Below, piece after piece: positions 3,825 to 29,408 of a DNA stretch of 41,013 nucleotides. The position numbers were made by a program, and so were the translations under genes. The notes under the pieces were generated by a model. That model was not told where the DNA came from, ran no database searches, and saw nothing but the letters and a program-made list of their open reading frames with translations. The stretch spans positions 1-41,013 of the forward strand of contig JAHJDJ010000221.1 in assembly GCA_018812585.1 (NCBI GenBank), given 5' to 3'. The DNA is from a bacterium. Its GTDB lineage: Bacteria > Electryoneota > B3-LCP. Position 1 is the stretch's first letter. Each line of letters opens with the position of its first letter.

Positions 3825-3854
3825 GGGATCTTCGGGGACACCCCCGAAGATCCC
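3825..3854 (-). terminator. Strong hairpin between fliC and fliD, no T-tract
   Basis: Thirteen paired bases, GGGATCTTCGGGG with its complement, enclose a four-base loop. There is no run of T residues on the minus strand after it, so it is not a classical terminator. It may partly terminate transcription or protect the 3' end of abundant fliC mRNA, lowering fliD output relative to flagellin. The rest of 3795-3943 shows nothing else I can name. Confidence 0.55.
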
Positions 3855-3943: not shown

Positions 3944-4777
3944 TTACGAGACTAAACCTGCAACCAACTGCGGTACCATATTGGCTTGTGACAACATGGA
4001 AATACCGGTCTGCATCAAGATCTGGGCACGAACGTAGTTGGACATTTCCGAGGCGATATCAGCGTCACGAATCATGGATTCGGAAGCTGCCGCGTTTTCA
4101 CGGGATGTCATCAGGTTGCTTAGCGTTCCCTGCAGACGTTCGACGTAGGCTCCGATTCTGGTACGTTCAGTATCCTTCAAATCAATAGCCGTATCGATGG
4201 CTCCGATGGCATTCTGAGCGTTGGTCGTGCTCGTAAGCGTCAGGCTACTCACCCCCAGAGAGGATGCTGTCATGCTGCTAAATGTGACGTGGTAGTAGTC
4301 CTCATTCTGTACGTTAAACGTACCGATATGGAATTTCACACCAGTACTTGAGTAATCGCCGTTCAGCAGATTGAGACCGTTGTAATTCGTGACATTGGCA
4401 ATTCGGGTCAATTCTGAGCTCAACTGTTGGAATTCAACGTTGAGCGCTGCACGGTCCGAGGACGTCAGTGATCCGTTTGACGCTTCTATTGACAGAGCGC
4501 GCATACGAATCAGCAGTTCGTCCATGGTTGCCAGGGCGCCTTCCGCAGTCTGCATCATATTGATGTTGGCATTGGCGTTTCTTTCCGCTTCATCCATTGA
4601 CGCAATCTGTGCGCGGAAGCGTTCCGAAATCGCCAAGCCTGCGGGGTCATCCCAGGCATTGTTGATCCTTAACCCTGACGACAAACGCTGCACTGCCTTA
4701 TCCAGATCATTCTGGGTATTCCAGATGTTGCGTTGGGCTGTCATGGAAAGGATATTGTGGTTGATGCGTGTACTCAT
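3944..4777 (-). CDS. fliC: Flagellin (filament protein)
   Basis: The 277-residue filament subunit has the conserved N-terminal domain (MSTRINHNILSMTAQRN, then RLSSGLRINNAWDDPAGLAI and NANANINMMQTAEGAL) and C-terminal domain (RIGAYVERLQ, then ESMIRDADIASEM and QILMQTGISMLSQANMVPQLV). The variable middle is short, so the filament probably has little beyond the D0-D1 core. The ATG has an excellent AAAGGAGG ribosome-binding site. A sigma-28 type promoter lies about 55 bases upstream. Six glycosyltransferase genes lie upstream in the neighbouring operon, so this protein is the likely glycan acceptor; that is inferred from position. The Ser- and Thr-rich stretch around residues 165-190 is a plausible target. 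Confidence 0.97.
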   Translation of the reverse strand: MSTRINHNILSMTAQRNIWNTQNDLDKAVQRLSSGLRINNAWDDPAGLAISERFRAQIASMDEAERNANANINMMQTAEGALATMDELLIRMRALSIEASNGSLTSSDRAALNVEFQQLSSELTRIANVTNYNGLNLLNGDYSSTGVKFHIGTFNVQNEDYYHVTFSSMTASSLGVSSLTLTSTTNAQNAIGAIDTAIDLKDTERTRIGAYVERLQGTLSNLMTSRENAAASESMIRDADIASEMSNYVRAQILMQTGISMLSQANMVPQLVAGLVS

Positions 4778-4830: not shown

Positions 4831-4858
4831 ATATCGGCACAGAGAACTTTAATCTTGA
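4831..4858 (-). promoter_or_regulatory. Sigma-28 (FliA) type promoter for fliC
   Basis: On the minus strand TCAAGATT is followed by 12 bases and GCCGATAT. The known consensus is TAAAGTTT, 11 bases, GCCGATAA. The -10 half matches seven of eight and the -35 half six of eight, with one extra spacer base. It lies 54 bases upstream of the fliC start, in the only gap of useful size. The presence of flgM in the same unit supports a FliA-controlled class. Confidence 0.75.
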
Positions 4859-4912: not shown

Positions 4913-5341
4913 CTATCCCACTGTATTTAAGAAGCGCGGATTCGTCGTCTGTTTTTGTCTGTAAAGACTTAATGTTTGACGCCCCAGGCGTATATCCTGA
5001 ATGTGTTTCCTATACTGCTGGATTTTTTCGGTTAAATCGCTGATATATACTGTATTTTCAGCTTGTATTTCTGTCAAGAATCCCTTGGCATAAGCCGTGT
5101 TATCCGGTTGCAAAACAGCAGAATTTTCACTATTCAGAGTTGCCGCCAGGGCTCGCAGCAAATCGTTTCGTTCTTCAATGGCACATTCAGTATTTTGCCA
5201 GTCACAAGCTTCTATGTACCGTCCCAACCGCTGGCTGGACTGGCGTAGAAGATCCATTAACTCAGGTCGCGACATCGCGACAGCTACGCTTTCATCTTCC
5301 AGGATCATTTTCATACTCTCAATCATGCTAAGCCGATGCAA
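4913..5341 (-). CDS. FliT-like flagellar export chaperone
   Basis: A helical protein of up to 142 residues. The pattern of two helices, a central SDLTEKIQQYRKHI segment and a closing IRLGRQTLSLYRQ resembles FliT-family proteins, whose C-terminus usually has a Gly-x-x-Ala/Leu-x-x-Tyr element. FliT chaperones bind FliD or other late export substrates. The start is uncertain: a TTG at 5341 directly follows the stop of the upstream gene, while an ATG at 5326 is also in frame; neither has a strong ribosome-binding site. It is the last gene before the fliC promoter, close to fliD, which fits the role. The family call is from pattern memory. Confidence 0.6.
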   Translation of the reverse strand: MHRLSMIESMKMILEDESVAVAMSRPELMDLLRQSSQRLGRYIEACDWQNTECAIEERNDLLRALAATLNSENSAVLQPDNTAYAKGFLTEIQAENTVYISDLTEKIQQYRKHIQDIRLGRQTLSLYRQKQTTNPRFLNTVG

Positions 5342-6019
5342 TTACGCTAGTTCCAGTTCAAGTTCCTGTTCTTTTACTGGCTTGTTTTGTGGTTGTGTGA
5401 GCTTCAAGATTTCCGGGATAATCTGACGCCAATCATGTAATGCAGGAATCAATTCGTACTCCAGCAAGTCCGCAAGCAATACCCAGTCCTGATCCGATTG
5501 AGCATCGATCATGTTGTCCAGCACGGCAAACAGTGCACGACGGCTTTCGGCAATTGTCTTCTCAGTCAAGCCATCGGCTGCCGGCACGGTTACTAATTCA
5601 TAGCTGAGCCCCAGCAGCCGCCGGCAAGTTTCCATCGTATGCATGAATACCTGCAGACCGTCGATGCTGCGCAGATAAGATTCGTTCGATCGTTCACCAC
5701 GACTCAAACGGAACAGATCTGATGTACTCTGCAGCTCCTTCAAGAGTTGCTCGAGAAAATCAGCGACGCTGAATAATGTGGATCTTGCCAGCAGCCGCGG
5801 ATCACCGGTTTGCACTTCGAGTTTTTCGATGTCGCCAACCGGTAAATCATCGAGGGTGGCGCGATCCTTCCCAGTAATATCTTCTCCGTTAAGCTTGACT
5901 GAAAGGACACTGTCTCCCGTTTCTGCCGCTTGATCTGACAATTTCTGCATCAGTTGACCGAAGAATTGAATTTCTTCTGTCGGAATCTCTGCAGCACGAT
6001 TATTTAGGTTTACCTGCAT
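5342..6019 (-). CDS. Conserved-looking flagellar-locus protein of unknown function
   Basis: A 225-residue cytoplasmic protein with no signal peptide or membrane segment. Residues 38-72 (VLSVKLNGEDITG, then LPVGDIEKLEVQTGD) look like a small beta-rich module, possibly beta-grasp-like. The remainder is helical and includes DQDWVLLADLLEYELIPAL. It follows the last glycosyltransferase by 36 bases and abuts the FliT-like gene, so it is probably co-transcribed with both. GGGGG sits near the ATG as a ribosome-binding site. I do not recognise a named family. Its position suggests a role in filament assembly, chaperoning or modification, which is inference only. Confidence 0.6.
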   Translation of the reverse strand: MQVNLNNRAAEIPTEEIQFFGQLMQKLSDQAAETGDSVLSVKLNGEDITGKDRATLDDLPVGDIEKLEVQTGDPRLLARSTLFSVADFLEQLLKELQSTSDLFRLSRGERSNESYLRSIDGLQVFMHTMETCRRLLGLSYELVTVPAADGLTEKTIAESRRALFAVLDNMIDAQSDQDWVLLADLLEYELIPALHDWRQIIPEILKLTQPQNKPVKEQELELELA

Positions 6020-6055
6020 AGAACCCCCAAGAGTACCTGTTAAGTATATTTAGAT

Positions 6056-7351
6056 CTAAATTAACTTCCACTGCTCTGCCACCGTGACCATCTCTGCAAT
6101 GCGGCGCTGATAAGTATGATCGGCCAATACACGAGCCCGACCTTGCGAGATAACGCGGCTTCCTGCATCAGGATGATTACGGTAGAATTTCCATTTATCG
6201 ATCATTTCGTCACTGTCTGCGAAAGTGACGACTTCTTCCCCGGGTTTGAAATAATTGGCGATATCGGCCTGCTCATCCGTGAACAGTAATCCTCCAGCAG
6301 CGGGAACGTCAAAGCAGCGCTGATTCAGTCCGCGCGGCATTTGTACCCCCGTCACATTAAGGATTGCGCCCGCCTGTCGGTACACATCTGCCAGATGGTG
6401 ATAATAATCGACCGATGGTAAAATGCGTGTATCGCCATTCAGAGCTGTTTTCCAGCCATCATCTCCGTATACTGTCAGCGGTTTGACTGCCGGAGATTGT
6501 GAAATAGACTGTAAAGACTTGGAACGCAGAGCTTTTGTGGCCAGAAGAACCAGAGCCGATTCAACCAGGAGCCAATCTGCGGTTTCGTGTTCATGCGCGC
6601 CATTTAACGTTGGAGACCAGGTCGTGCCGGAAGCCATAGGCTTGACTGCTTCACGGATTGGTTTCAAGACATCCCAGGCGGGCTGTTTACAGTATTGCGG
6701 AACTGAAAGGGACAGCAGAAACCGCTGCGCTAATTCAGAAAAGATCTTCTCGGAGATATCAGTTAAATTCGGACGAAGGCTATCCGGTAACAGGGCTATC
6801 GCTTTTTCCACTGCATTTGTCATAGAGTCGCCGACGAAAACCAAGGGGGCAGCCGATGGCATCGCTGCGGCCAAATCACCCCGATTAAAAATACTGGGAT
6901 CGGTCGCCAGAGGCAAGCTGTGTATTTTATTGAAGCCCAGACTTCCCAGCCAGTCTGCGTAACTGTCATCCCAGAGGAAGATGCCGGTGCGGTCGTTGAC
7001 GTTAATCAGACTATCAAGAAAAATGTAGCGAGGGCTGTCGACATACCAGACCAGCGAAGGTAATTCCAAAGCTTCCAGGAGATCATTCAACCTGCCATCC
7101 AGATCGAAGCCCAGATGATTAATGGTTATCAAGGCGTCGGGCCGGCATTTTTCAACCGCAGTGATAATCATATCGAGGAAGGTATCGTAGGGAGACGAAT
7201 CCTTCAGCGGCGTCTCAGCCGAAATAGACAAAGTCACGACGACCAGGGTGTGACCTTCCTGCTGAATCGCCGATGCGATTTCCCGTGTCAGGAAATAGCC
7301 TGCATCGACCAGCAGCAGTGTCTTTTCATTTATCGCTGAGGGATTCATCAT
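6056..7351 (-). CDS. CgeB-like glycosyltransferase
   Basis: The 431-residue protein has a GT-B style layout. The N-terminal half begins with a TLLLVDAGYFL strand and includes PSLVWYVDSPRYI, the aromatic-Asp-x-Pro element common in the CgeB/DUF3880 group. The C-terminal half carries GLNQRCFDVPAAGGLLFTD and ends in the HTYQRRIAEM segment seen in Glyco_trans_1_2 domains. It would transfer a sugar from a nucleotide donor; the sugar and acceptor are unknown. An AGGGTG ribosome-binding site precedes paired ATG codons. It is the last of six glycosyltransferase genes between flgL and fliC, nine bases after the preceding gene. Confidence 0.8.
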   Translation of the reverse strand: MMNPSAINEKTLLLVDAGYFLTREIASAIQQEGHTLVVVTLSISAETPLKDSSPYDTFLDMIITAVEKCRPDALITINHLGFDLDGRLNDLLEALELPSLVWYVDSPRYIFLDSLINVNDRTGIFLWDDSYADWLGSLGFNKIHSLPLATDPSIFNRGDLAAAMPSAAPLVFVGDSMTNAVEKAIALLPDSLRPNLTDISEKIFSELAQRFLLSLSVPQYCKQPAWDVLKPIREAVKPMASGTTWSPTLNGAHEHETADWLLVESALVLLATKALRSKSLQSISQSPAVKPLTVYGDDGWKTALNGDTRILPSVDYYHHLADVYRQAGAILNVTGVQMPRGLNQRCFDVPAAGGLLFTDEQADIANYFKPGEEVVTFADSDEMIDKWKFYRNHPDAGSRVISQGRARVLADHTYQRRIAEMVTVAEQWKLI

Positions 7352-7360
7352 ACTGACACC

Positions 7361-9151
7361 CTAAATAACCTCTCGAACAGGTTCAAAATCCTGAATTTCA
7401 ACTTCTGATTTGAGCGGCAATAGAGGCGACAAAGATGATAGTGCTGATATCAAGGCTAATGACAAATTCTGCAGTCTTTTATAGATGCGATGTGTGGCGC
7501 GGGAAAGCTCACCCATTTCGTCCCCGATCAAATTCTGCTTGTTAAAAACGAAATCAAGGACTAATTGATTGACCGCCGGCAGTCGAAATCCCATCTGAGT
7601 GATAGACTCGTCAATCCTGAATAGCTCTTCGCCAGCCCCCTTAAGCTGTTGTGGGTCAATGGTTGCATCCTCGGCAGCCATCTCCAGAACTTTGCAATTC
7701 AGTTGGCCATCAAATGCCAGTTCACTCAGTTGCTGAAGCGCCGTTTCTGCTTCTTCGATTCCGGGGCGGAAAGTTGCTTCCTCCGGCGGAGCATAATCTT
7801 CCAGAATTACTTTCAAGGCTTCATAATCCAGGCCATTCTCCGGGAGACTCTGCGGATTTGTCAATACCTGTTTCCAGAGCATGCGGGAACAGAGAGCAAT
7901 CAGATCCTCAGGCTTAAGAGAAGGCTGTAATACGGGGCGAAGCAGCCAGAAACCATCGGCGTCAAAATCGGTGCGCCAGATGTTGACGTCATGGTACGCG
8001 GTATCCTGGGCCCAGTGCTGTGGATTGTCCGCTGATTCGTTCAGCATCCAGGCTGCAGTCCGATAGATGATATCCGGAGTGACGGCCTGCTGACAACGGA
8101 AGTCGCTGCATTTCACGTGGAAACTGCACGGGTAACAGGATAGATTTGCTTCCACTACGAAGTGATCTTTGGCATAGGGTCCCGTTTCGTGAGATAGAGC
8201 GCTGCCAAAACAGAGTGACAAAACAGGCGTTCCAACGGCGGCTGCCACGTGCTGCGTGCCTGTGTCATTAGTAATCAGGAGGTCCAATTTCTGAAGCGCA
8301 GCTCCCAATGAGGCGACATCGGTTTTGCCCGCCAGATTCAAGGCATGGTTCCCCAATGGTGCGCATACTTCTGCTGCCAGACCGGCTTCACTTTTCGTGC
8401 CGAAAACGACGATGCCAGCATCCAGCTTTTCTACCAGATTTTGGGCCAGGGATGCGAAAGACTCCGTCGGCCACCTTTTACAGTCGAGAGAGGCGCCGGG
8501 CTGAATTCCGATTTTAAATCTGGATTGATTCTGCTCCCAAGCTGCGAACAACTTATCTGCCTGTTGCACCGCTTCAGGTTTCACCGTGAAGCTTAGACGA
8601 TACTTACCGAAAGGATGACTCGAGTCATGCGGCTGACGGATCTCATCATCGACGTCCAAAGACATCCCCAGGTTGACGTCTACCAGATTGATGCGATTAT
8701 AATGGCGGTTAAGGTTGCCGATAAAGAAGTATTTGGACCAGGGGTGTTCAATACGCCTAAAGCCTTCAGCATCCAGAGTTAACCCGTGAATATTGGGGAC
8801 ATTAAGCAGATAGGACAACAGGGCTGAATGGCGCGAGTGTGAAAGATTGTATAGCGAGGTAAAATTCTCCTGGTGCAATTCGACAAGATAGCAATCCAGT
8901 TCCTGAAGGCGGCGGGGAAGCAAGCGCACTGCTTCCTTTGAGATGGCAATGGCAGCGTTGAAATCAAATGGGATGACACGATCAATTTCGGGGATGAGAT
9001 CGCAAATCTCCGTAAATCCGGAAACTGCGAAATAACATAGCTCGTGATCCGGGTGTTTCGCCTGCAGCGCCTGCAGCAGGGGAGTTGTCTGGATGATGTC
9101 CCCCATCCGGGTCATGTTGACGATTAATATTTTTCCTGTTTTTTCAGTCAT
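7361..9151 (-). CDS. GT9 (heptosyltransferase-like) glycosyltransferase with helical C-terminal extension
   Basis: This is a 596-residue protein from the ATG at 9151, which lies 13 bases after the preceding stop; longer in-frame starts up to 9196 would overlap that gene. The N-terminus ILIVNMTRMGDIIQTTPLL and the motif DLLITNDTGTQHVAAAVGTP are signatures of the ADP-heptose:LPS heptosyltransferase (GT9) fold. A Cys cluster (CYPCSFHVKC, then C) matches the family's C-terminal Cys region. Residues from about 420 to the end are an extra, mostly helical region absent from classical enzymes of about 350 residues. Given the flagellar operon, the acceptor is more likely a flagellar protein than LPS (inference). 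Confidence 0.82.
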   Translation of the reverse strand: MTEKTGKILIVNMTRMGDIIQTTPLLQALQAKHPDHELCYFAVSGFTEICDLIPEIDRVIPFDFNAAIAISKEAVRLLPRRLQELDCYLVELHQENFTSLYNLSHSRHSALLSYLLNVPNIHGLTLDAEGFRRIEHPWSKYFFIGNLNRHYNRINLVDVNLGMSLDVDDEIRQPHDSSHPFGKYRLSFTVKPEAVQQADKLFAAWEQNQSRFKIGIQPGASLDCKRWPTESFASLAQNLVEKLDAGIVVFGTKSEAGLAAEVCAPLGNHALNLAGKTDVASLGAALQKLDLLITNDTGTQHVAAAVGTPVLSLCFGSALSHETGPYAKDHFVVEANLSCYPCSFHVKCSDFRCQQAVTPDIIYRTAAWMLNESADNPQHWAQDTAYHDVNIWRTDFDADGFWLLRPVLQPSLKPEDLIALCSRMLWKQVLTNPQSLPENGLDYEALKVILEDYAPPEEATFRPGIEEAETALQQLSELAFDGQLNCKVLEMAAEDATIDPQQLKGAGEELFRIDESITQMGFRLPAVNQLVLDFVFNKQNLIGDEMGELSRATHRIYKRLQNLSLALISALSSLSPLLPLKSEVEIQDFEPVREVI

Positions 9152-9164
9152 AATTCTAATAGCT

Positions 9165-10763
9165 TCAGGCGTTAATTGCATCGTTATATAAGGCAAATTC
9201 TGGTTGATTGTCTCTGATCGCGGTGTAATTGATCAACAAACGCTGTATCCGGGTCAGTCTTTGTAACAGATTTTCCTGAGCCGCCAGCGCTTTCTCTATT
9301 GGTGAAAAATATTCCGCTGAAGAGTTGAAGCATTCGATACGGTACAGATCAAATAGCGGTCTGAATGAACTGAATTCATCAGCCAGGCTAAAGATTTCGG
9401 ATGATAAGGTGTCCTGATAATCGCCACGGTCGAGCTGTTCCTGCAGTCGTCCCATTGACTGCTGTACTGCTTCCAGTAGTTTCTTCTCCAGAATAGTGAT
9501 ATTATCCCGGTATTGGCTGATAATCTCAGCGTTAACATTCTTATTAAAACCTGGCACAGTACCTGTGGAAGGGAACAGACCCTGGAGCGCAGTTCTCCAG
9601 AACAGCCGCAGTTGATCTCCCTTCTTCGGCTGACCTGCGAGAGTCAAACATCCAGACGGATCAAAGACCGTATTTTTGATGCTGACGTCAGCAACTGGCT
9701 GCAGATTAGCCTCAGTCAGCAGATGCCTTATTGAATGCAGAACGATTTCAGGCGTCACCACAGCATGACAGATAGGATTATTACAACTGCCGGATTCGCT
9801 GCAGGGATGGCAATCCAGATCTGGCTCAATAGTGACTCCGTGGCTGGTATAAGGCGCGGTATCCCAGGCTGACGCCATGGCGAGGTATAAACCGACGCAT
9901 GGTTTTCCAAGCAGCGCCGCTAAATGCAGGGGACCAGAGTCCTGCCCGATAAAAATATCGCATGAATCGATTACCGCGGCCAGTTGTGCCGGATCTGTTT
10001 GACCGCAGAGATTCACGACAACGTTTCCGACTACATCTGAAATGGATTGAGCATCAGCGATTTCACTCTTTGTTCCGACCAGAACAACCTGAGCTGACAT
10101 TTCGCTGGCCAGCAATCTAATGGTTTCCTTCCAGGATGGAACCGGCCACTGGCGAAGCGGATGATTAGCGCCCATGGCAACGGCGATACGAATTCGTTGA
10201 GCCGCTGCGGGAATGATTTCTGCCACGTGGCGCTGATGATCAGCGGATATGTCAATATCTTCAAAAGCGCTGCACTGATCAGAGGCAATTTTACGGTTCA
10301 GATCAACCAGATTGAATCCGTTGCAGGAGCGTGATTCCAACAGGCTAAAAAAGTAGCGGGTCCAGTGCGGTTCAAGGATTTCATCATCATTCCGCTGGAT
10401 CAATCGCCCGCGCACCGGTATGTCTGGGAACGAAGCCGCTAAAACTCCAGAAAACCTTGTATGTGTCAGGTTGACGATCACGTCGGGTTGGTACGTTTCA
10501 ATTGCTTCAAAGAGCGGAACGAGGGAGGCAACTCCCTGCTGGACAGCGGCTTGATCAAGACGCATGATATGCAGCAGTTCATCGCCGTCAAAGGGGATAA
10601 TTTCGTCCACACAGCGATGCAATTTCGCTAAAGAGACGAGATCGTCCGGAACCAGTAGAGCAATTTCATGGCCGCCGCTGGTGCGGTGTAGATCAGAGAT
10701 TGCCGGAAAGGATTGCAGCAGATCTCCGAAACGTGCTAAGGCTATGACAAGCGCTTTGGCCAT
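9165..10763 (-). CDS. GT9 (heptosyltransferase-like) glycosyltransferase
   Basis: The 532-residue protein begins ALVIALARFGDLLQSFPAI, the GT9 N-terminal motif, and carries CDIFIGQDSGPLHLAALLGKP, the donor-site motif of that family. Its Cys segment (CHPCSESGSCNNPIC) parallels the next gene. The last 150 residues are helical with long amphipathic stretches, again beyond the usual family length. It starts directly at the stop codon of the preceding gene (TAAATG). Together with the next gene it may represent an old duplication; the two share layout but differ in sequence. Confidence 0.82.
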   Translation of the reverse strand: MAKALVIALARFGDLLQSFPAISDLHRTSGGHEIALLVPDDLVSLAKLHRCVDEIIPFDGDELLHIMRLDQAAVQQGVASLVPLFEAIETYQPDVIVNLTHTRFSGVLAASFPDIPVRGRLIQRNDDEILEPHWTRYFFSLLESRSCNGFNLVDLNRKIASDQCSAFEDIDISADHQRHVAEIIPAAAQRIRIAVAMGANHPLRQWPVPSWKETIRLLASEMSAQVVLVGTKSEIADAQSISDVVGNVVVNLCGQTDPAQLAAVIDSCDIFIGQDSGPLHLAALLGKPCVGLYLAMASAWDTAPYTSHGVTIEPDLDCHPCSESGSCNNPICHAVVTPEIVLHSIRHLLTEANLQPVADVSIKNTVFDPSGCLTLAGQPKKGDQLRLFWRTALQGLFPSTGTVPGFNKNVNAEIISQYRDNITILEKKLLEAVQQSMGRLQEQLDRGDYQDTLSSEIFSLADEFSSFRPLFDLYRIECFNSSAEYFSPIEKALAAQENLLQRLTRIQRLLINYTAIRDNQPEFALYNDAINA

Positions 10764-12593
10764 TTACACAACTCCCTTTTCAACACCCCAGCGACGAAAT
10801 TCATTCAGCAATAGAATCATAGCTTCGGTACGCTTCAATTGGCCTTCGCCTTTTTCTAAATCCGCGGCAATATCTTCCAGTGTCAGCGGACCTCGTCCCA
10901 CAAATTGCTGCATCACCTGCGCCAGCTCGCTTTCAACGCCAGCTTCGGTAATCAGGTCTTCAGCAGTGGGCAGACCTCCACTTTTGGGTTCCCATTGCGG
11001 ACAACGTCCGGCAATGACGCCCAGCAATTCAGACATGCGGTGTTCGTAGGTATGCTCCTTTAAGGTCCTGGCGCGGGCGGCTTCAGCCATTTCGATACGC
11101 TCCTGGGGATTTTCCAGGTAATGGGCAGCTTTATCGCGAAATTCCTGCAGCGAAGAAAAGGTATCGACTTCAGATCCAATATCGTAATTATCTGCCAAAT
11201 ACTTGCGCTGATCCACAAGCTGGAAAGCTCCACAGGCTGCCAGTTCAAAGGTGCGTGGATTCAGGAAATCGCCAAATGGATTCACCCCGGAATGGAATGT
11301 GGAAGAGTGGAGATTGACATTGATTTTAGTGGCATTGAAGATCTTGACCGTGTCTTCTGTGGAGATCCTGGCGCCTGCACGCTGCAGGATTCTATTTAAG
11401 ACGCCTGATTTCTCCCAATCGCTTCCCCAGAGCTTGAAATCGTAATCCAACAGACCTGTAAAGAAATCACGACGATTAAAATATCCGGCGCCAACATGCG
11501 ACAGATCGCTGCCAAACTCACTCAGTTCTTCTGGTGACAGGTTCAAGGGCAGATGTACATGGGGATCGGCAGCCACTGGTAGATAGTGTGGCTGGCGGCA
11601 TCCGATCTCCATAAGTTTTTGTTCAAATTCGCCCTTTTGAATGATAAAGAAGTGATCAAAATGAAGTGCTATAGATTGCCAGTAGGGCAGCAGTTGGTAA
11701 TCTTCGACAAACCAGAACGCGGTCTGAATGTCTGCCTTCTTCAACTCTTGCAGAACTTCAGGAGTCGCGGGTGATTGGGCGATCCATAGAACCAGGTCAG
11801 CACGTAAATCCAAAGCTCGCGCGGTAACCATTTCAGCTAACAAAGTCGTCAACCCGGCATTCAGACTGGCAGCATGCTGCTTACTGGACGTCAAGCCGTT
11901 TATCAGATCTAATCCACCGCGAAAGACACTGTTATCCAGAATTTCACAGCGATGTCCTAAGTTATTGAAGGCATTTTGTATATAGGTGGTCATCGGCAGG
12001 GTTCCGCCATAGATGGGTGAAACCAGCAGGATTTTATAACCCCCGCGTTTCGCTGCTTGGCGGGTGCGAAGCTGACCGGATAATGTAATGTAGTATTCAG
12101 GGAACAGATCGGCTGAAGCCGGATGTACCAGACAGTGAAATTTTGTACTTTCAGTGAGATCATTGATTTGTTGCAAGGTAGAAGTTAAATTTTCACCAAT
12201 GATGAAGCGCAGTCCAGCCTGAAAGGTATCTGGAGATCGGTGGCTTAGAGCGGCAGCAGCCAGAGAAACATCCTTCTCAATAACGACCACTCGCTCGGCG
12301 GGGACTCGCTTTAACAACTGCTCAAGATGGTAGCCAAAGCCCATTCCTGCGACGATATACAGGGATTTGCCGTCATCCTCAATTCCCAATGAAGCGAACC
12401 ATTTCTCTGCTTCCGCGGCAGGTTCATAGGTACTATGCAGCGCTTTTCCTTGAATGACTGGCACTGGAGAACCGTTACGGGCAGTCTTCACCTCTATACT
12501 GCTCGACTGGTAAGCTTTGAGCAGTTTATCGCCGAGGGCTGGGTCTTGATCGGCGACACGCTTCAGGTTTTTTTCAAAGTAATTAGAATCCAT
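10764..12593 (-). CDS. Fusion of Maf-like N-terminal domain and CgeB-like glycosyltransferase
   Basis: In this 609-residue protein, residues 1-175 resemble the N-terminal part of motility accessory factor (Maf) proteins. They carry a NLKRVADQDPAL helix, TARNGSPVPVIQGKALHS with a following TYEP and EAEKW, and the Gly-rich VAGMGFGYHLEQLL with VVVIEKD. From residue 186 (YKILLVSPIYGG) a CgeB/DUF3880-like glycosyltransferase begins, with AFWFVEDYQLLPYW and a C-terminal NPRTFELAACGAFQLVD and EHTYEHRMSEL. Maf proteins are needed for transfer of nonulosonic acids to flagellin in several bacteria. Here the Maf sugar-transferase centre seems to be replaced by a different glycosyltransferase, with the N-terminal part perhaps serving flagellin recognition (inference). 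Confidence 0.78.
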   Translation of the reverse strand: MDSNYFEKNLKRVADQDPALGDKLLKAYQSSSIEVKTARNGSPVPVIQGKALHSTYEPAAEAEKWFASLGIEDDGKSLYIVAGMGFGYHLEQLLKRVPAERVVVIEKDVSLAAAALSHRSPDTFQAGLRFIIGENLTSTLQQINDLTESTKFHCLVHPASADLFPEYYITLSGQLRTRQAAKRGGYKILLVSPIYGGTLPMTTYIQNAFNNLGHRCEILDNSVFRGGLDLINGLTSSKQHAASLNAGLTTLLAEMVTARALDLRADLVLWIAQSPATPEVLQELKKADIQTAFWFVEDYQLLPYWQSIALHFDHFFIIQKGEFEQKLMEIGCRQPHYLPVAADPHVHLPLNLSPEELSEFGSDLSHVGAGYFNRRDFFTGLLDYDFKLWGSDWEKSGVLNRILQRAGARISTEDTVKIFNATKINVNLHSSTFHSGVNPFGDFLNPRTFELAACGAFQLVDQRKYLADNYDIGSEVDTFSSLQEFRDKAAHYLENPQERIEMAEAARARTLKEHTYEHRMSELLGVIAGRCPQWEPKSGGLPTAEDLITEAGVESELAQVMQQFVGRGPLTLEDIAADLEKGEGQLKRTEAMILLLNEFRRWGVEKGVV

Positions 12594-12610
12594 TTGCAGA
12601 TTCGCTATCT

Positions 12611-14464
12611 TTAATTCTGTTTTGACTCCAACGGGGGAGTTTGGTCTAAAGGCATGCTAATATTATTCAATGTCCTTTTTCTAATGGCCTTTTCCGATCC
12701 GTCCGGCATGTGATCGGCTACTGATGCTCTGCAGCTATGCAGGACATGGGTCAATATCTGCTGCCATTCGTCCTCCCTCAGAGGAAGGCTTTCAACCTGT
12801 TCCCATTTATCTGCATCGGTAAAATTGACCAGATAGTGCGTCAACTGCCGCAAAGCTTCTTCCCTGCGGTGCGAATTCAGCAGCAGTATGCCTAACCAGA
12901 CATTCAGCTCGGCATTCCAGGGTTTATGCTTCAGTGCCTGTTCAGCAAACAGAACTGCGAATTCAGGAGAACCATTTTCATCCAGCAATTTGGCACAATG
13001 ATAGTAGGGATCGAACGATTTAGGTTTTAAGGCAATCGCCTCTTGATAGCAGTCGAATGCATTCCAGCGCACGGGATGATCCAGCGACCGATCTACACCG
13101 GTTTCCAAAAGCCAGCCGGCCTTTTCCATAATCTGACCGAAGCAGATAAAATCCTGATGATTAAGCGGCTTTCCTCGCGTCAGTCTTTCAATCAACTTCT
13201 GACTAAGTTTCTTCAGGCGGAAATGATGGCTCAGTTTTTCAATTTCAGCAGCGGCAGAAGGGTAAAGTTTCTGCTCCCAATGAACCCAGAAGGCCGCCCA
13301 ACGAGAGCGCATATGACACGGATCAATTTCCCGTGAGCGCCGCAGCGATTTTAATGCATCATGATGGCGTTCTTGTTTTAATGCTTCCACCGCTAATTCA
13401 TAATGCAGCTCCGCCGTTTCACAACCTCTTTCGATCTGTAACATCAAGAGACGAATGCTCTCCGATTTCAGTTGCCCGATGGGTTGCTGCGGCCAGCGAT
13501 TGGATTGTTCCAGAAACGATTTCCCCAGCGCGATAGAACGGCTGCCGTTTAACTGCTTTTTTCTTTTATCACTGATAAATTGTTGGACTTTGTCAATCAA
13601 TGTCTTGGCGCGATGATCCACAGTATGTTTGTCAAGAACGGCATTCATCCCCTGCTGTGCAATCTTTTCCCTGAGCTGATCATCCTGGAGTAACGTCTGG
13701 GCCGTTGCGATGATATTTTCGGGAGTATAGCTGACCAGGTGTTCCCAGTTGTTGAAGAGATGGTCGAATGAGCCGCCATTTTCTTCTGTCAGGAGACAAG
13801 CCCCAGTCGCCATGACCTCGAATGTTCGCAGATTAATTCCGGGGAATAGATTTTCGTTAAGCACAATTTTAGACTGGTTGTACACTTGCACGACGTCAGC
13901 CGGACTGACTGCCCTACGCCCTTCGCCATCAAGAACGGCCACATTGAAATGCTTCTGGAGTTCCTGCAGAATCCAGGTGCGCTTAGGTCGGCGGTGGTGA
14001 TTTAACGACCCGACAAATGCGATATCGTGAAGCTTTTCGGTCTCGACTCGCTTGTAAATGTATGGATCAGCCGCTAAGGGCAGCCAGTGAAAGCGCTCTT
14101 TCCGGTCCGGATAGTGCGTTTGCAGTTTATCCACCTGCTCAAACTGATCGAGAAAAGTAAGGTCGCAAGCTGCGGCGAAATCTTTTTGCCAGAAAACGTT
14201 CATCGGGGCATCTACGCCGAAGAAGACCAGCGGAATGGTTATATTTTCAAAGCCTGTAACCGCGGTGCGTAGATTGATTGCATCTGATACCAGAACGATA
14301 TCCGGTTGAAAGGGACACCGCTCAAGGATCTGCTGTATGTGAACCGGCCTCAATTCCAGTTGCAGGTCGGCTTCCGGCGCAGGGCTGGCGTAAAAGACCT
14401 CGCAGTCAAATACGTTTCTCAGACTGTGCAGAAAGTACCCATCGTTCAGCAGTAAGATGCGCAT
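12611..14464 (-). CDS. CgeB-like glycosyltransferase with TPR-like C-terminal region
   Basis: In this 617-residue protein, residues 1-300 form a CgeB-like glycosyltransferase: MRILLLNDGYF, VFFGVDAPMNVFW, HWLPLAADPYIYKRV, FVGSLNHHRRPKRTWIL, then NLRTFEVMATGACLLTE and HTVDHRAKTLID. Residues 340-560 have repeated helix pairs of TPR type (LHYELAVEALKQERHHDALKSL, FAVLFAEQALKHKPWNAELN). TPR regions often bind protein partners, and in known O-GlcNAc transferases they bind acceptor proteins. The start overlaps the preceding gene by 19 bases and has AGGAT upstream, suggesting translational coupling. Confidence 0.8.
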   Translation of the reverse strand: MRILLLNDGYFLHSLRNVFDCEVFYASPAPEADLQLELRPVHIQQILERCPFQPDIVLVSDAINLRTAVTGFENITIPLVFFGVDAPMNVFWQKDFAAACDLTFLDQFEQVDKLQTHYPDRKERFHWLPLAADPYIYKRVETEKLHDIAFVGSLNHHRRPKRTWILQELQKHFNVAVLDGEGRRAVSPADVVQVYNQSKIVLNENLFPGINLRTFEVMATGACLLTEENGGSFDHLFNNWEHLVSYTPENIIATAQTLLQDDQLREKIAQQGMNAVLDKHTVDHRAKTLIDKVQQFISDKRKKQLNGSRSIALGKSFLEQSNRWPQQPIGQLKSESIRLLMLQIERGCETAELHYELAVEALKQERHHDALKSLRRSREIDPCHMRSRWAAFWVHWEQKLYPSAAAEIEKLSHHFRLKKLSQKLIERLTRGKPLNHQDFICFGQIMEKAGWLLETGVDRSLDHPVRWNAFDCYQEAIALKPKSFDPYYHCAKLLDENGSPEFAVLFAEQALKHKPWNAELNVWLGILLLNSHRREEALRQLTHYLVNFTDADKWEQVESLPLREDEWQQILTHVLHSCRASVADHMPDGSEKAIRKRTLNNISMPLDQTPPLESKQN

Positions 14465-15897
14465 GCTCTATCCTGCAGGGTTTGGTTGATTGTTTTGGCG
14501 CCCGGCTGCGGTGGTTTCATTGTCTGAAGACGACGCAGCGCTGTTTTGCGTTGATTCTCCCGAATCTGCATTGGCACGTTCAGGGGTAAGGGCAAAGTCG
14601 TCAATTCCGCGGTCCAGGTTTCATAGAACTTATCCAATAAGGGGTGAGCGTGAATTGGGCCATTCCTGATTTCGGGAGTATCCTGCAAGATTCCTTTACA
14701 ATAACGCGCCAGGTTTTCTGCTTCAGGGTGATCAGATAATCCGCTTAGATTTCTAAAATGGTTTTCCCCATCCTGTGAATAGGATCGATAAAGTTCAATA
14801 TTTTGAGGCAGTGAGCCTGCGGATGTCGAATCTGGATGCAAAAGAGTGTATATTAAATTTCCCATATCCGTGGTTTCCTCAAAATAGGATCGACACTGAT
14901 ATTGACAGCGTTCCGCCATTGCTGAAGAGCAGGGATAATCTCGGCAACTGGGCGCCAGCGCCCAGTGATTCTGCCCATAAGGACCGGTTTCATAAAGGCC
15001 AGCTTCGGCAAAGTAAATGCCTACTAGCGGCGTCTTCAGCGCCGCCGCCCAATGAAGCGGCCCGGTATCCACAGAGACGATTCCGTCAATTTCTTTCAGC
15101 ACGCCAAGAGTCTCAAGCGGCGATGTTTTTCCGATCAGGTTCAGTACCGCCTGGGAATTCCCATACAAGCTGCCGTAAAATCCATCTGCCACTGACAATT
15201 CGCTTTTTGCTCCTAAAAGAACCAGTCCGATATCACCATGCTGCTGGATAGCATTCCAATAACCTGCCCAGGTTTGCGGTGAAATGCGCCGATTATGGCC
15301 GCCTGATCCAAGTAAAAATGCAAAGATCCGCGTAAGTCCCTGCTGATAAAGTGGACTTAATACGTTTTTAGCAAAGTGTGTACCTTTTTCAGGAACAGTA
15401 GTTTCCAGGGATCTCCGTCTCGTCGGCTGCTTTGCCAGATAGCGCCATAAATCAGCCAAATGGATGCGGCCAACAGGTCTGAACCAAGCCATGGCGCGCA
15501 GGTAACTGCGCATTAAGAGCAGTTCCGAAGTCAACCAAATATGCGGTGATTTAAACCAATACAAAGCGGTCAATGCATCTGTCGCCGAGTGGTCATTCAG
15601 AGCAAATACCTGGTTGAACTCTCCTGCATCCAAATCACTAAGTTCACGGAGTTCCGAAAGCATCTCTGGAAGATGAACAGGCCCCTGGATGCATTGGCTG
15701 CGCCACAGCGCGGTGTCAATCGGCCTTATTTCGCCGATATTCGGGAGGAGTTCTGCCCAGTCAGACACCACGGCATCGCAGATGAGCGTGATATTCTCGT
15801 CAACCGGAAGGGATTCCAGAAGCGGCAACATCTGGATGATATCACCCAGACGCGCCATTTGAAAGATCCCCGTTTTATGTTCCGGCTTTGCTGTCAT
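14446..15897 (-). CDS. GT9 (heptosyltransferase-like) glycosyltransferase
   Basis: The 483-residue protein has GIFQMARLGDIIQMLPLLESL at its N-terminus and DGIVSVDTGPLHWAAALKTPLVG in the donor-binding half, both GT9 hallmarks. A Cys-containing segment (DYPCSSAMAERC, then QC) follows as in the other two GT9 genes here. The final 100 residues are polar and unlike the classical family. It is the first gene of the glycosylation island and starts 20 bases after flgL, so the island is fused to the flagellar operon. Confidence 0.82.
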   Translation of the reverse strand: MTAKPEHKTGIFQMARLGDIIQMLPLLESLPVDENITLICDAVVSDWAELLPNIGEIRPIDTALWRSQCIQGPVHLPEMLSELRELSDLDAGEFNQVFALNDHSATDALTALYWFKSPHIWLTSELLLMRSYLRAMAWFRPVGRIHLADLWRYLAKQPTRRRSLETTVPEKGTHFAKNVLSPLYQQGLTRIFAFLLGSGGHNRRISPQTWAGYWNAIQQHGDIGLVLLGAKSELSVADGFYGSLYGNSQAVLNLIGKTSPLETLGVLKEIDGIVSVDTGPLHWAAALKTPLVGIYFAEAGLYETGPYGQNHWALAPSCRDYPCSSAMAERCQYQCRSYFEETTDMGNLIYTLLHPDSTSAGSLPQNIELYRSYSQDGENHFRNLSGLSDHPEAENLARYCKGILQDTPEIRNGPIHAHPLLDKFYETWTAELTTLPLPLNVPMQIRENQRKTALRRLQTMKPPQPGAKTINQTLQDRACASYC

Positions 15898-15917: not shown

Positions 15918-16847
15918 TTAGCCAATAAACTGTGCCAGGGACGGTTGAATGATCATGCCGCCCACATTCAGGGCAACCTGATAAGCATTCTGTTCCAACG
16001 TCATATTTGTTATCGCTTCCACCAGATCGGTATCTTCCTGCTGAGACAACTGGCCGGTTAAGGTAGTCTTTTCCGCCAGCAATGACATTTCCAGATTATT
16101 GAGGCGGGTTACCCGGCTGCCAATCAGAGTGGTCATGTCGGATACATTTGCCATGATATCATCAATCTGGGGAATGATGTCACCGACTGTCTGTATATCG
16201 CCGCCGTTCAATGCATCGCGCAGATTGATCAATGTTTGGAAGATGTCTTCGTCACCGGAGACGCCGTTCGGCTGAAATAGTTCAGCTCCATTGATATTGA
16301 TCTGAATCTGTTCCCCAGTATCAATCTGACGCATAATGGATCCATCGATCCCATTCGCATTCGACGTTACACTGGTAATATTTCCGGTGATGGGGTCACG
16401 TATGGCGTTGAAGGCTGTTTCGGTGGTGTTCGTACCGCCGAAAATCGTCTTACCGCCGTAGTCACTATTTGACAAGGAATAGAAATTTTCCAGATAGCCG
16501 TTGATCTCTTCTGCCAGCATCGCCATCCCTTCAGGGGTGATTGCTTCATTGCTCCCTTCGACGGCATCGGCTCTGGCTTCGGTCAACATTTCGTACATTG
16601 ACTGTAGAGATTCTTCGGTATTGATCATCCAGGATTTACCGTCCTGCAAATTTTCCTGATATTGTTCATTCTGGTTAAGGGAATTTCGTAGTCTCAGAAT
16701 CATCCCTGCTGCCGCGGGATCGTCAGAAGCATAGTAAACCCGTTTCCCTGTAGAGATTTGATTTTGCAAATCATTTAAGTTTCGCATTCTCTCATTTAAG
16801 GTGTAAATGAGATCATTCATCTGCATCTGGTTTGTGATGCGCTGCAT
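15918..16847 (-). CDS. flgL: Flagellar hook-filament junction protein FlgL
   Basis: The 309-residue protein forms one of the two junction layers between hook and filament. The N-terminus (MQRITNQMQMNDLIYTLNERMRNLNDLQNQISTGKRV, with SDDPAAAGMI after it) and C-terminus (LEQNAYQVALNVGGMIIQPSLAQFI) are typical of FlgL/HAP3. The ATG has GGAGAGGAT upstream. A response regulator gene separates it from flgK, an unusual insertion in an otherwise standard flgK-flgL order. Confidence 0.95.
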   Translation of the reverse strand: MQRITNQMQMNDLIYTLNERMRNLNDLQNQISTGKRVYYASDDPAAAGMILRLRNSLNQNEQYQENLQDGKSWMINTEESLQSMYEMLTEARADAVEGSNEAITPEGMAMLAEEINGYLENFYSLSNSDYGGKTIFGGTNTTETAFNAIRDPITGNITSVTSNANGIDGSIMRQIDTGEQIQININGAELFQPNGVSGDEDIFQTLINLRDALNGGDIQTVGDIIPQIDDIMANVSDMTTLIGSRVTRLNNLEMSLLAEKTTLTGQLSQQEDTDLVEAITNMTLEQNAYQVALNVGGMIIQPSLAQFIG

Positions 16848-16877: not shown

Positions 16878-17264
16878 TCAACCTGCGAGATTTTGCACTA
16901 TCCACTGTAATTCATCGATATGAAACGGTTTGAATAAAATGCGATCTATCTCCCGGTTGCGGAGCATCTGGTGTACGTCATCGCACTCATAGGCTGTCAT
17001 CAAGGCCACCGGTAAATGTGGAAACTGCTTGCGCAGCCGACGCGCCAGATCGATCCCATCCATACCTTTCATGCGTAAATCTGAGATGACCAAATCCACT
17101 GGCGTGTTCAGCACCAGATTCAGCGCAGCTTCAGCGCTGTCCGCGCCGCAGGTAGAATATCCAATTTCTGATACCATTTCCATGACTACATCACGAATTC
17201 CATCTTCATCATCGACGATCAAAACTGTCTTGGATTCAGGATGGTTTTTGACGTCGCTTTTCAT
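16878..17264 (-). CDS. Stand-alone CheY-like response regulator receiver
   Basis: This 128-residue single receiver domain has no output domain. The expected residues are visible: acidic pair Asp18-Asp19 in IVDDEDGIRD, phosphoacceptor Asp62 in VISDLRMKGMDG, Thr90 in VALMTAY and Lys112 in ILFKPF. It could act by binding a partner, as CheY and Spo0F do. It lies between flgK and flgL within the operon, with AAGGTG before its ATG, so it is made with hook-junction proteins. The cognate kinase is not in the window. It could regulate the sigma-54 activator, motor switching or a checkpoint; the sequence does not decide. Confidence 0.9.
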   Translation of the reverse strand: MKSDVKNHPESKTVLIVDDEDGIRDVVMEMVSEIGYSTCGADSAEAALNLVLNTPVDLVISDLRMKGMDGIDLARRLRKQFPHLPVALMTAYECDDVHQMLRNREIDRILFKPFHIDELQWIVQNLAG

Positions 17265-23742: not shown

Positions 23743-23758
23743 TGCAAGTAACATGCCA
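23743..23758 (-). promoter_or_regulatory. Sigma-54 (RpoN) promoter of the flagellar operon
   Basis: The minus strand reads TGGCATGTTACTTGCA. The consensus is TGGCACG, four bases, TTGCA or TTGCT; only the sixth base differs. The invariant GG and GC are exactly ten bases apart. The predicted start site is about 12 bases beyond the GC, leaving a leader of about 25 bases before flgF. No other sensible promoter lies between here and the fliC promoter, so it may drive the whole run down to 4913. An enhancer-binding activator such as FlrC or FleQ would be required and is not in the window. Confidence 0.85.
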
Positions 23759-24126: not shown

Positions 24127-25527
24127 CTACTTCATTAAAACCATCTTGCCAACCGCGCTGAACTCTCCGGCGGTGAGGCGATACAGATAGATCCCTGACG
24201 CCAGTTGCGAGCCATCGAAGGTGACTTCGTGGCTGCCTGCATTGCGGAAGCCATCGATCAGCGTAGCAACTTTCCTCCCGGAAATATCATAAACCGACAG
24301 GTTGACTTCACTGCCTGCTGAAAGCTGAATGCTGATGGCTGTCGTGGGGTTGAAGGGGTTGGGGTGGGCGTTAATTGATAATTGACTTGGAACTGCGTTA
24401 GCTCCGGGATTAAGTCTAATTGCGAGCGATTGATCGTAATAAAACGCTCCTATGTCACTGATCGTGCTGTCGGGATCAAACGGAGAGACTGGATCTCCTG
24501 CATCAATGCAGGGAGAATTGGTTGAAAGCGAGTAATTGCTTTCGGGCGGATTCTGGAACAGCGGATCTTCGAAGACGTTATAGTAAGCGTCGCAGGAATC
24601 TCCGTTGGCGTTGACTGTGATCATCACGCCTAAATTCCCGATGGGATTGTCCCAGAAATCTTCGTATTGATTGTCAAAAAAATCGCAGTAGGAGATTGAA
24701 GTGAATGGAGAGGATACGAAGCGGATACCGCCGCGTCCGTAATTACCCGCCACGATGGTATTCTTGATTGTCGGATTAGAATCGGCAACATAAATCCCGC
24801 CACCACCGCTAGTTGCTGTCGTGCCACACTCGTTTCCAACAATTGTGCAATTCAGGATGACCGCGGTGGAATAGTCGCACACAATTGCTCCGCCCTGCCA
24901 CAAGGTCACGTTTCCCGAAAAAAGGCAATTTCGGACAATGGGATCGCAGGTGTTCAGGTATAATCCCCCACCCCTTGGGCTGAAGGTTCTGATGGCTGTG
25001 TTATCTGTAAACTCACAATAAGCAATCTCCGGAACGGATTGATAGCAGTACACACCTCCACCAAAGACTGCATCGTTATTGCGAATGGTGCAATGAGTCA
25101 ATACTGGATGGGAATTCTGGCAGAGGATCCCACCACCGGTCATGTCGGGCCAACTGCCCGCGGCATATCCCTGCTCGATGATGCAGTAACTCAAATGACT
25201 GTTATCCGGCGCATCAACAAACCGTATCCCGTGCCAGCCTTCGCTGGTATCGGCAGCAGTAAACAAGATCGAATCTTCTTCGGCGCCTTCTGCGAGTAGC
25301 CAGCCGTTGACGATCAGCTTATGATGTCCCTGGAAATTGATCTCAACTCCGGGATCAATGGTAAGTGTATCGTTCGCCAGGACAGTGATTTCTCCTTCAA
25401 TCAGATAGGGTGATCCAGAAATATCCCATGACCCTGAAACATCGCCTCCTGGTATGGTTGTCTGAGTATAGCCACTTGTCGAGATAGCTAAAACTATAAT
25501 AATGATAAACGATAACTTCCGTTTCAT
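24127..25527 (-). CDS. Secreted parallel beta-helix protein with C-terminal sorting-type domain
   Basis: The 466-residue protein starts at the ATG at 25527, where GGAGGGTGAG lies immediately upstream; the frame could extend four codons to a GTG inside that site. A signal peptide (KLSFIIIIVLAISTSGYTQ) leads into repeats of the right-handed beta-helix type (CTIRNNDAVFGGGVYCYQS, YCEFTDNTAI, NCLFSGNVTLWQGGAI, NCTIVGNECG) across about residues 100-330. The last 85 residues start HPNPFNPTTAISIQLS and end SGIYLYRLTAGEF, a FlgD-Ig or type IX secretion-like tail common in FCB bacteria. It is probably an exported or surface protein binding or cleaving polysaccharide; no catalytic residues are obvious. 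It has its own promoter and terminator. Confidence 0.85.
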   Translation of the reverse strand: MKRKLSFIIIIVLAISTSGYTQTTIPGGDVSGSWDISGSPYLIEGEITVLANDTLTIDPGVEINFQGHHKLIVNGWLLAEGAEEDSILFTAADTSEGWHGIRFVDAPDNSHLSYCIIEQGYAAGSWPDMTGGGILCQNSHPVLTHCTIRNNDAVFGGGVYCYQSVPEIAYCEFTDNTAIRTFSPRGGGLYLNTCDPIVRNCLFSGNVTLWQGGAIVCDYSTAVILNCTIVGNECGTTATSGGGGIYVADSNPTIKNTIVAGNYGRGGIRFVSSPFTSISYCDFFDNQYEDFWDNPIGNLGVMITVNANGDSCDAYYNVFEDPLFQNPPESNYSLSTNSPCIDAGDPVSPFDPDSTISDIGAFYYDQSLAIRLNPGANAVPSQLSINAHPNPFNPTTAISIQLSAGSEVNLSVYDISGRKVATLIDGFRNAGSHEVTFDGSQLASGIYLYRLTAGEFSAVGKMVLMK

Positions 25528-25572
25528 CTCACCCTCCACAATAAAATAACGTTAATTTATACGTAGATTTGC

Positions 25573-26283: not shown

Positions 26284-26310
26284 CACTAACCACTAACCGC
26301 TAACCGCTAC
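26284..26310. repeat. Heptamer tandem repeat overlapping the metallopeptidase stop codon
   Basis: Four units are seen: CACTAAC, CACTAAC, CGCTAAC and a partial CGCTAC. The array begins at the gene's stop codon and reaches almost to the terminator stem. It has the same unit length and position as the array after the beta-helix protein gene. Short heptamer arrays of this kind are well known in cyanobacterial genomes. Confidence 0.75.
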
Positions 26311-29345: not shown

Positions 29346-29379
29346 AATTAACCCTATATTTTTATCCCTTGCCTGGCAT

Positions 29380-29408
29380 AATATACGGGAGAAATCACGA
29401 TTTTGCAA
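29380..29408 (-). promoter_or_regulatory. Vegetative promoter of the metallopeptidase gene
   Basis: On the minus strand TTGCAA is followed by 17 bases and TATATT. The -10 matches five of six and the -35 four of six. The predicted leader is about 28 bases, with AGGG before the ATG at 29345. The -10 hexamer is the same as that of the beta-helix protein gene. Confidence 0.7.

Follow-up and report, generated by a model that had tools for sequence, protein, structure and literature searches.

The analysed window is a stretch of 41,013 nucleotides from an uncultured member of the candidate phylum Electryoneota (LCP-89/AABM5-125-24); the genomes considered are MAGs from organisms not in culture. The interval from flgL to fliC contains three GT9 and three CgeB-like glycosyltransferase genes, followed by a gene for a 225-aa protein (unk225) and a FliT-like gene (unk142). 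In the direction of transcription, on the minus strand, the order is flgL, GT9a, CgeB+TPR, CgeB2, GT9b, GT9c, CgeB3, unk225, unk142 and fliC (Table 1). The gaps from flgL to unk142 are, in this order, 20, −19, 17, 0, −32, 9, 36 and 0 nt, that is, a single strand throughout with no gap above 36 nt. The original prediction of three GT9 and three CgeB-like genes in an unbroken run with overlaps or very short gaps is borne out, the two families by PF01075 and PF13524 matches above the curated cut-offs. The −32 nt overlap between GT9b and GT9c rests on a TTG start of GT9c at 9196 (611 aa); the other possible start, ATG at 9151 (596 aa), abolishes it. The glycosyltransferase genes sit inside a flagellar locus, as those of flagellin glycosylation islands do. 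Profile matches (Pfam and NCBIfam) revealed no nucleotide-sugar synthesis genes in 4913–15897, as had been claimed for the island.

Table 1. Features of the flgL–fliC region and its promoter-like sites, in the direction of transcription.
Feature	Position	Strand	Description	Evidence
Sigma54-type promoter upstream of flgF	23743..23758	-	Candidate start of the whole hook-junction-glycosyltransferase transcript	TGGCATG-N4-TTGCA
flgL	15918..16847	-	Bounds the island upstream	TIGR02550, 225.9 bits, above cut-off
GT9a	14446..15897	-	GT9-family glycosyltransferase, 483 aa	PF01075, E 1.8e-13; RLGD and DTGPLH motifs kept
CgeB+TPR	12611..14464	-	CgeB-like GT-B glycosyltransferase, 617 aa	PF13524, E 1.9e-23; C-terminal TPR matches at 351-544
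CgeB2	10764..12593	-	CgeB-like glycosyltransferase, 609 aa; N-terminal region weakly Maf-like	PF13524, E 3.7e-37
GT9b	9165..10763	-	GT9-family glycosyltransferase with C-terminal extension, 532 aa	PF01075, E 5e-22; CHPC...C...C motif at 318
GT9c	7361..9196 (or 9151)	-	GT9-family glycosyltransferase with C-terminal extension of ~230 aa	PF01075, E 2.4e-29
CgeB3	6056..7351	-	CgeB-like glycosyltransferase, 431 aa	PF13524, E 3.2e-28
unk225	5342..6019	-	Beta-grasp-like N-domain and four-helix bundle (predicted), 225 aa	Conserved; structure prediction, pLDDT 92.8
unk142	4913..5341	-	FliT-like small helical protein, 142 aa	PF05400 in positional orthologues
Sigma28-like promoter of fliC	4831..4858	-		TCAAGATTAAAGTTCTCTGTGCCGATAT; similar boxes in relatives
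fliC	3944..4777	-	Flagellin, 277 aa, candidate substrate	PF00669, E 3.5e-41

The GT9 proteins match PF01075 above its cut-off and carry, as read from the translations, the N-terminal GD and the D-S/T-G-x-x-H motifs of the family. The GT9 tree resolves three orthologue groups, with GT9a in a starred clade together with relatives from families f2, f4 and f5, but not how these groups connect at depth to the genome's remaining GT9s. The C-terminal extensions of GT9b and GT9c are homologous to each other (hhalign E 6.8e-13). Both proteins also have a four-Cys segment, a trait shared by GT9s of standard length that this genome encodes (L136, L137). The GT9 similarity starts at residue 4 in GT9b and at residue 22 in GT9c, too early for an N-terminal beta-barrel of the TibC type (ca 97 residues), which is absent from both. 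A scan of viral contigs with GT9c gave no relatives.

Since LPS is the best-known setting of GT9 enzymes, it is important to consider that the genes might make an LPS core, a capsule or another surface glycan and that the flagellar operon is a mere location. The scores against the LPS heptosyltransferase models (TIGR02193/02195/02201) can be read both ways: GT9c reaches 105.9 bits with the heptosyltransferase II model, the best value, but the equivalog cut-off is 134.6 and none of the island GT9s reaches that of any of the three models. Eight further GT9 matches are found on other contigs of the genome, and LPS can therefore be served elsewhere; the GT9s of standard length elsewhere in the genome (315–384 aa) lack the long C-terminal extensions. 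Together with the distribution described below, this makes the surface-glycan reading very improbable.

All three CgeB-like proteins exceed the curated PF13524 cut-offs, and CgeB2 is the best-conserved member of the island. A sequence search with CgeB2 against the PDB gave chance-level matches only, whereas its AlphaFold2 model (pLDDT 91) confidently predicts a GT-B fold, with a best PDB match of E 2.5e-9. Two details had been missed previously, namely the C-terminal TPRs of one CgeB protein and a weak Maf N-terminal domain on another. The latter, PF20157 (Maf_flag10_N), is matched by CgeB2 of the window at E 7e-4, below the cut-off, and by 7 of 27 CgeB2 orthologues, with a best E of 1.3e-7. 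The Maf catalytic domain PF01973 was absent from all island proteins of the window in the profile search.

No Pfam or NCBIfam entry matches unk225, and a Foldseek comparison of its model with the PDB returned generic four-helix bundles only (best E 0.069). The Nitrospirota counterpart is a bundle-only form, and a diverged version occurs in family f8 near fliA-type regulators, without CgeB2. Relationships of unk225 to FliS, FlgN, the FliT-like protein and the GT9 C-terminal extensions were considered, and hhalign shows none of them. A built-in flagellin chaperone in the GT9 extension is, on this result, unsupported. As predicted, the gene of this uncharacterized protein is followed by a small one, which lies just outside the interval originally given. 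The label FliT-like stands in part: the copy in the window does not match FliT (PF05400), while matches exist for 5 of the 12 positional orthologues, the strongest at E 1.1e-5.

We now consider how the locus is conserved. Synteny of the island extends to each of the five genomes sampled from the same family, and the island recurs with variations across the Electryoneota. The same-family genomes retain the block flgL, glycosyltransferase array, unk225, fliC, and families f2, f4 and f5 have it in varied form. A clear flagellin is encoded in 34 of the 39 Electryoneota genomes, and CgeB2 is present in exactly those 34; the five genomes without it have no flagellin or a single weak match (Fisher p = 1/575,757, hand-computed and with kinship ignored). 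Outside the phylum, all 50 CgeB2 genomes tested have flagellin. This exact co-occurrence is not what would be expected of enzymes serving LPS or a capsule. The long GT9 (GT9c) directly follows CgeB2 at every one of the 80 named loci, among them loci from Nitrospirota, Nitrospinota and Thermodesulfobacteriota, and in several other lineages the pair stands beside fliC/fliD/fliS or motA/motB/FlbD-like genes. The conserved core would be CgeB2, GT9c and the 225-aa protein with its predicted beta-grasp/four-helix fold. In Nitrospinota, however, the pair is remote from flagellar genes and lacks an accompanying unk225, so position alone cannot fix the target. Since the core occurs next to flagellar genes in several other phyla too, it very probably puts sugars on the filament protein before export.

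The mode of action is a separate question, compatible with flagellin as the target. Each enzyme might add one sugar at its own site, with no joint oligosaccharide. The number of enzymes does differ among relatives (GT9b is absent from one same-family genome, L023), as separable modifications would allow, but the fixed CgeB2-GT9c pair and the fusion of GT9c and CgeB3 into a single ORF in family f5 (L035 4567–7629, 1020 aa) suggest consecutive steps. We regard independent action as the less likely mode, though one to be taken seriously.

The genes from position 23707 to 4913 all share a strand, no gap between them exceeds 41 nt, and they lie downstream of the sigma54-type site before flgF. At the same place, 7 of 8 relatives have TGGCAC-N5-TTGC. 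In each of the 14 relatives examined for it, a box reading GCCGATA, GTCGATA or much like these precedes the main-cluster fliC. The conserved sigma54 and sigma28 sites and the synteny support the claim that the island lies behind the flgF promoter and is transcribed together with the genes of the hook and junction. Within the island there are 23 sigma70-like sites on both strands, against ca 15 expected, and an internal promoter may thus be present.

This arrangement could also mean that the substrate is another exported axial protein, FlgL, FlgK or the hook, given that flgK and flgL precede the island genes within one sigma54 operon and that the sigma28 promoter divides these genes from fliC. 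However, unk225 and the FliT-like gene stand on the fliC side, and family f4 retains the order glycosyltransferase array, unk225, merR-like gene, fliC. The Ser/Thr enrichment is, moreover, located in the centre of the flagellin, where the segment has 34% Ser/Thr compared to 16% elsewhere. In known flagellar glycosylation systems flagellin is the main target. An axial protein other than flagellin is on these grounds an improbable substrate. The proposed flagellar role is upheld by the conserved synteny, the exact co-occurrence with flagellin and the conserved promoter sites: the island genes belong to the flagellum and probably act on flagellin.

As to the donor sugar, both halves of HldE are encoded beside the second flagellin gene of the genome (fliC2), and hldE adjoins merR-fliC2 in two families despite differing flanks. 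These ADP-heptose genes hint at heptose as the donor; the neighbourhood could also be inherited synteny. HldE serves LPS too, and NeuB-type synthases are encoded elsewhere in the genome. The expectation that the donors come from elsewhere holds for the window but not for all relatives, some of whose islands (e.g. L044) hold a GDP-mannose-4,6-dehydratase-like gene and, as a separate gene, PF01973 (Maf/MptE-like).

From gene content, synteny, promoter-like sites, co-occurrence and predicted folds we infer a scheme for substrate, adaptor, order of action and donors. We consider it likely that the island is a sigma54-transcribed, cytoplasmic flagellin O-glycosylation system in which flagellin is held by an adaptor and glycosylated on Ser/Thr by GT-B enzymes. 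The island would share the sigma54 promoter with genes for the ring, the hook-filament junction and chaperones, and its enzymes would therefore be present before sigma28 turns on fliC. The protein unk225, proposed here as a flagellin/enzyme adaptor, and the TPRs of the second enzyme would keep flagellin close to the enzymes. These would link a glycan to Ser/Thr in the central segment of FliC, a short and exposed one, and then lengthen it; FliS/FliT-type chaperones and the flagellar exporter would take over afterwards. The GT9 donor would most likely be of the ADP-heptose type, from the general HldE pathway.

One can speculate further that in Electryoneota, Nitrospirota, Nitrospinota and several Thermodesulfobacteriota the flagellins bear an O-glycan that contains heptose and is made by GT9 enzymes. 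The CgeB2-GT9 machine behind it would have evolved separately and would have its own four-helix (plus beta-grasp) adaptor to present flagellin, so that the system would be a kind of protein O-glycosylation distinct from Maf, FlmG and BAHT. This wider proposal is tentative, and we hold it less likely than its opposite. If the reading of the island is right, flagellin glycosylation in several little-studied phyla would be the work of an ancient fixed cassette, not of variable islands acquired recently, and the enzymes in use would come from families outside Maf and FlmG. The cassette, made up of CgeB2, GT9c and the small adaptor, lends itself to testing, and a role is offered for unk225, a conserved protein that today has no family.

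The use of GT9 enzymes on a flagellar protein had been called unusual, but precedents exist: predicted GT9 genes occur in the flag-2 loci of 70 strains of Enterobacterales (PMC6993521), and the heptosyltransferase TibC glycosylates autotransporters (PMC4358343). As in the Geobacillus FGI (PMC5109656) and flag-2 VR1 (PMC6993521), the glycosyltransferase genes lie in a flagellar locus near hook-junction and flagellin genes, with GT9 members in flag-2. Unlike these variable cargo regions, the present island has a fixed CgeB2-GT9 pair and a beta-grasp/four-helix protein over several phyla; it also lacks donor-synthesis genes, an absence that is not decisive, such genes being common but not universal in flagellin glycosylation islands. 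TibC/AAH (PMC4358343), the BAHT enzymes, are heptosyltransferases that put heptose on a surface protein, and the four-Cys segment of GT9b and GT9c may correspond to their four-Cys iron finger, although standard-length GT9s of the genome have such a segment as well. The GT9s here differ in that they lack the N-terminal beta-barrel, have no autotransporter next to them and carry an additional C-terminal domain.

FlmG of Caulobacter crescentus, whose TPRs bind flagellin (PMC7591256), likewise modifies flagellin and combines TPRs and a GT-B domain in one chain. Its TPRs are N-terminal and its transferase domain C-terminal, whereas the protein of the window has the reverse order, and FlmG is a flagellin transferase for pseudaminic acid, while the island has five more transferases. 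A link to the Maf transferases is the Maf N-terminal domain matched by some CgeB2 orthologues; in place of the PF01973 catalytic domain, the window proteins have a CgeB-type GT-B domain. For Maf-2, PMC13317340, citing Unay et al. 2024, describes a co-encoded factor, GlfM, and such a small co-encoded flagellin-recognition factor is the model that we propose, by analogy, for unk225.

Between flgL and fliC, the flagellar genes of the window enclose, in this order, GT9a, a CgeB-like enzyme bearing TPR repeats, CgeB2, GT9b, GT9c, CgeB3 and two small proteins of 225 (unk225) and 142 residues. Pfam and NCBIfam recover the three GT9-like (PF01075) and three CgeB-like (PF13524) genes of the original prediction, and assign no family to the small proteins. 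The packing is also as tight as predicted, with gaps of −32 to 36 nt within the island and at most 41 nt between neighbours from flgF to the 142-aa gene; the first larger gap of this run, 135 nt, lies ahead of fliC.

The enzymes had been expected to be made alongside the hook-junction proteins, with flagellin following, and the promoter motifs support this order. A sigma54 site precedes flgF (TGGCAC-N5-TTGC at the same position in 7 of 8 relatives), and a sigma28-like box precedes fliC, identical or closely similar in 14 of 14 main-cluster relatives checked, so the enzymes would be made before flagellin. Judging by motifs, sigma70-type sites may also lie inside the island. Separately, four same-family genomes retain the response regulator that separates flgK from flgL, the hairpin between fliC and fliD is possibly an attenuator keeping the cap protein below the flagellin level, and one of the two sorting-tail proteins directly upstream of the operon is a beta-helix protein.

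Features of the window and of related loci
Feature	Location	Strand	Description
Flagellar genes	23707 to 1220	−	all on one strand
Sigma54 site	23758-23743	−	TGGCATG-N4-TTGCA, about 35 nt ahead of flgF
Sigma28-like −10 box	before fliC		GCCGATA
Response regulator	16878-17264		single-domain
Hairpin	3825-3854		perfect, 13 bp
Type IX secretion sorting-tail proteins	24127-25539; 26307-29408
fliC2 locus	source genome G000, contig C296, L055:11303-14481		flagellin gene 84% identical to fliC, merR-like gene upstream
Tariuqbacter fusion ORF in the island	L033:3747-7931		1394-aa ORF joining GT9, DUF3880/CgeB and radical-SAM domains
merR-like gene, family f4	L044:16170-16544; L046, L049-L051, L053		between unk225 and fliC
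Diverged unk225, family f8	L041:3991-4632; L042:1090-1593		adjoins FliA-like sigma and sigma54-activator genes

The source genome is a 3.85-Mb draft of 383 contigs; its family mates are assigned to candidate division LCP-89, and more distant genomes of the phylum to Electryonea, Tariuqbacter and AABM5-125-24 (PMC10439189), some being otherwise named. The flgL-fliC island is found in 5/5 same-family genomes. One (G005) is missing GT9b, and in another (G002), where the ORF map is partly disrupted, an HMM search still recovers the members except GT9b. Families f2, f4 and f5 have it too, with altered gene numbers, fusions and replacements: GT9c and CgeB3 are a single protein in f5, and the f4 island includes a gene resembling GDP-mannose-4,6-dehydratase and another of family PF01973.

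CgeB2 follows flagellin closely. It is present in 34 of 39 phylum genomes, and the five lacking it are the same five with no flagellin or one weak match, probably a FlgL-like protein. Flagellin occurs in all 50 non-phylum genomes with CgeB2, carrying CgeB2 being their sole selection criterion. A long GT9 directly follows CgeB2 in 80/80 named loci. In Nitrospirota, and in Thermodesulfobacteriota including relatives of Geobacter, the pair adjoins genes for flagellin, the cap, FliS or the motor (motor and FlbD-like neighbours were identified by eye from sequence starts). The Nitrospinota genomes also encode flagellin, but there the pair is not beside flagellar genes and the small protein is missing; at L079, L087, L099 and other loci a ~1130-aa CgeBTPR-like enzyme clusters with CgeB2 and GT9c, with no recognised flagellar genes or small protein nearby. 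Family f8 keeps a diverged unk225 despite having no CgeB2 and little or no flagellin.

The CgeB2 model (pLDDT 91) resembles the GT-B enzymes TreT and HepE (E 2.5e-9 and 3.8e-9), and 7 of 27 orthologues match the Maf N-terminal domain over their N-terminal region. All three GT9 proteins retain the GD motif and the D-S/T-G-x-x-H motif. A C-terminal extension is common to GT9b and GT9c (hhalign E 6.8e-13, between family sets split by best BLAST hit that may overlap somewhat), and the source genome's remaining GT9 proteins, where recovered whole, have the usual length for the family (315-384 aa).

For unk225, an AlphaFold2 model from 29 orthologues (mean pLDDT 92.8) gives a four-helix bundle at residues 74-207; residues 1-73 are predicted, from the strand-helix order, to be a beta-grasp-like unit. 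Comparison with solved structures gave nothing below E 0.069. The Nitrospirota version, ~142 aa, aligns to the bundle alone. Following the examples of the FlmG TPR domain (PMC7591256) and of GlfM (PMC13317340), we propose unk225 as an adaptor that would link flagellin to the enzymes.

As to sugar donors, both HldE halves (ADP-heptose synthesis) are encoded in the source genome, each above the curated cut-off. The split hldE is divergent from the second flagellin gene, fliC2, its first half 0.6 kb away; fliC2 has no sigma28-like box, the merR-like gene lying directly upstream instead. The fliC2-merR-hldE1 order recurs in four same-family relatives and, with differing outer flanks, three f2 genomes; L181, from f5, did not show it. 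An isomerase resembling GmhA, which scores under the equivalog cut-off, and NeuB-type synthases are also encoded. ADP-heptose is therefore a possible and mildly favoured donor for the GT9 steps, and nonulosonate donors are possible as well. The merR-like gene of the f4 island, related to that before fliC2, is possibly a flagellin-specific regulator.

In the limited literature searched, where absence is no proof, no paper was found on the CgeB2-GT9-small-protein cassette or linking CgeB to flagellin modification. Glycosyltransferase islands in flagellar loci are, as a class, well known (PMC5109656, PMC6993521). In 70 strains the flag-2 loci are predicted to include GT9 members (PMC6993521), so the original view that GT9 use for a flagellar protein would be unusual was too strong. 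We regard the island as a variant of an already known kind of flagellar glycosyltransferase island.
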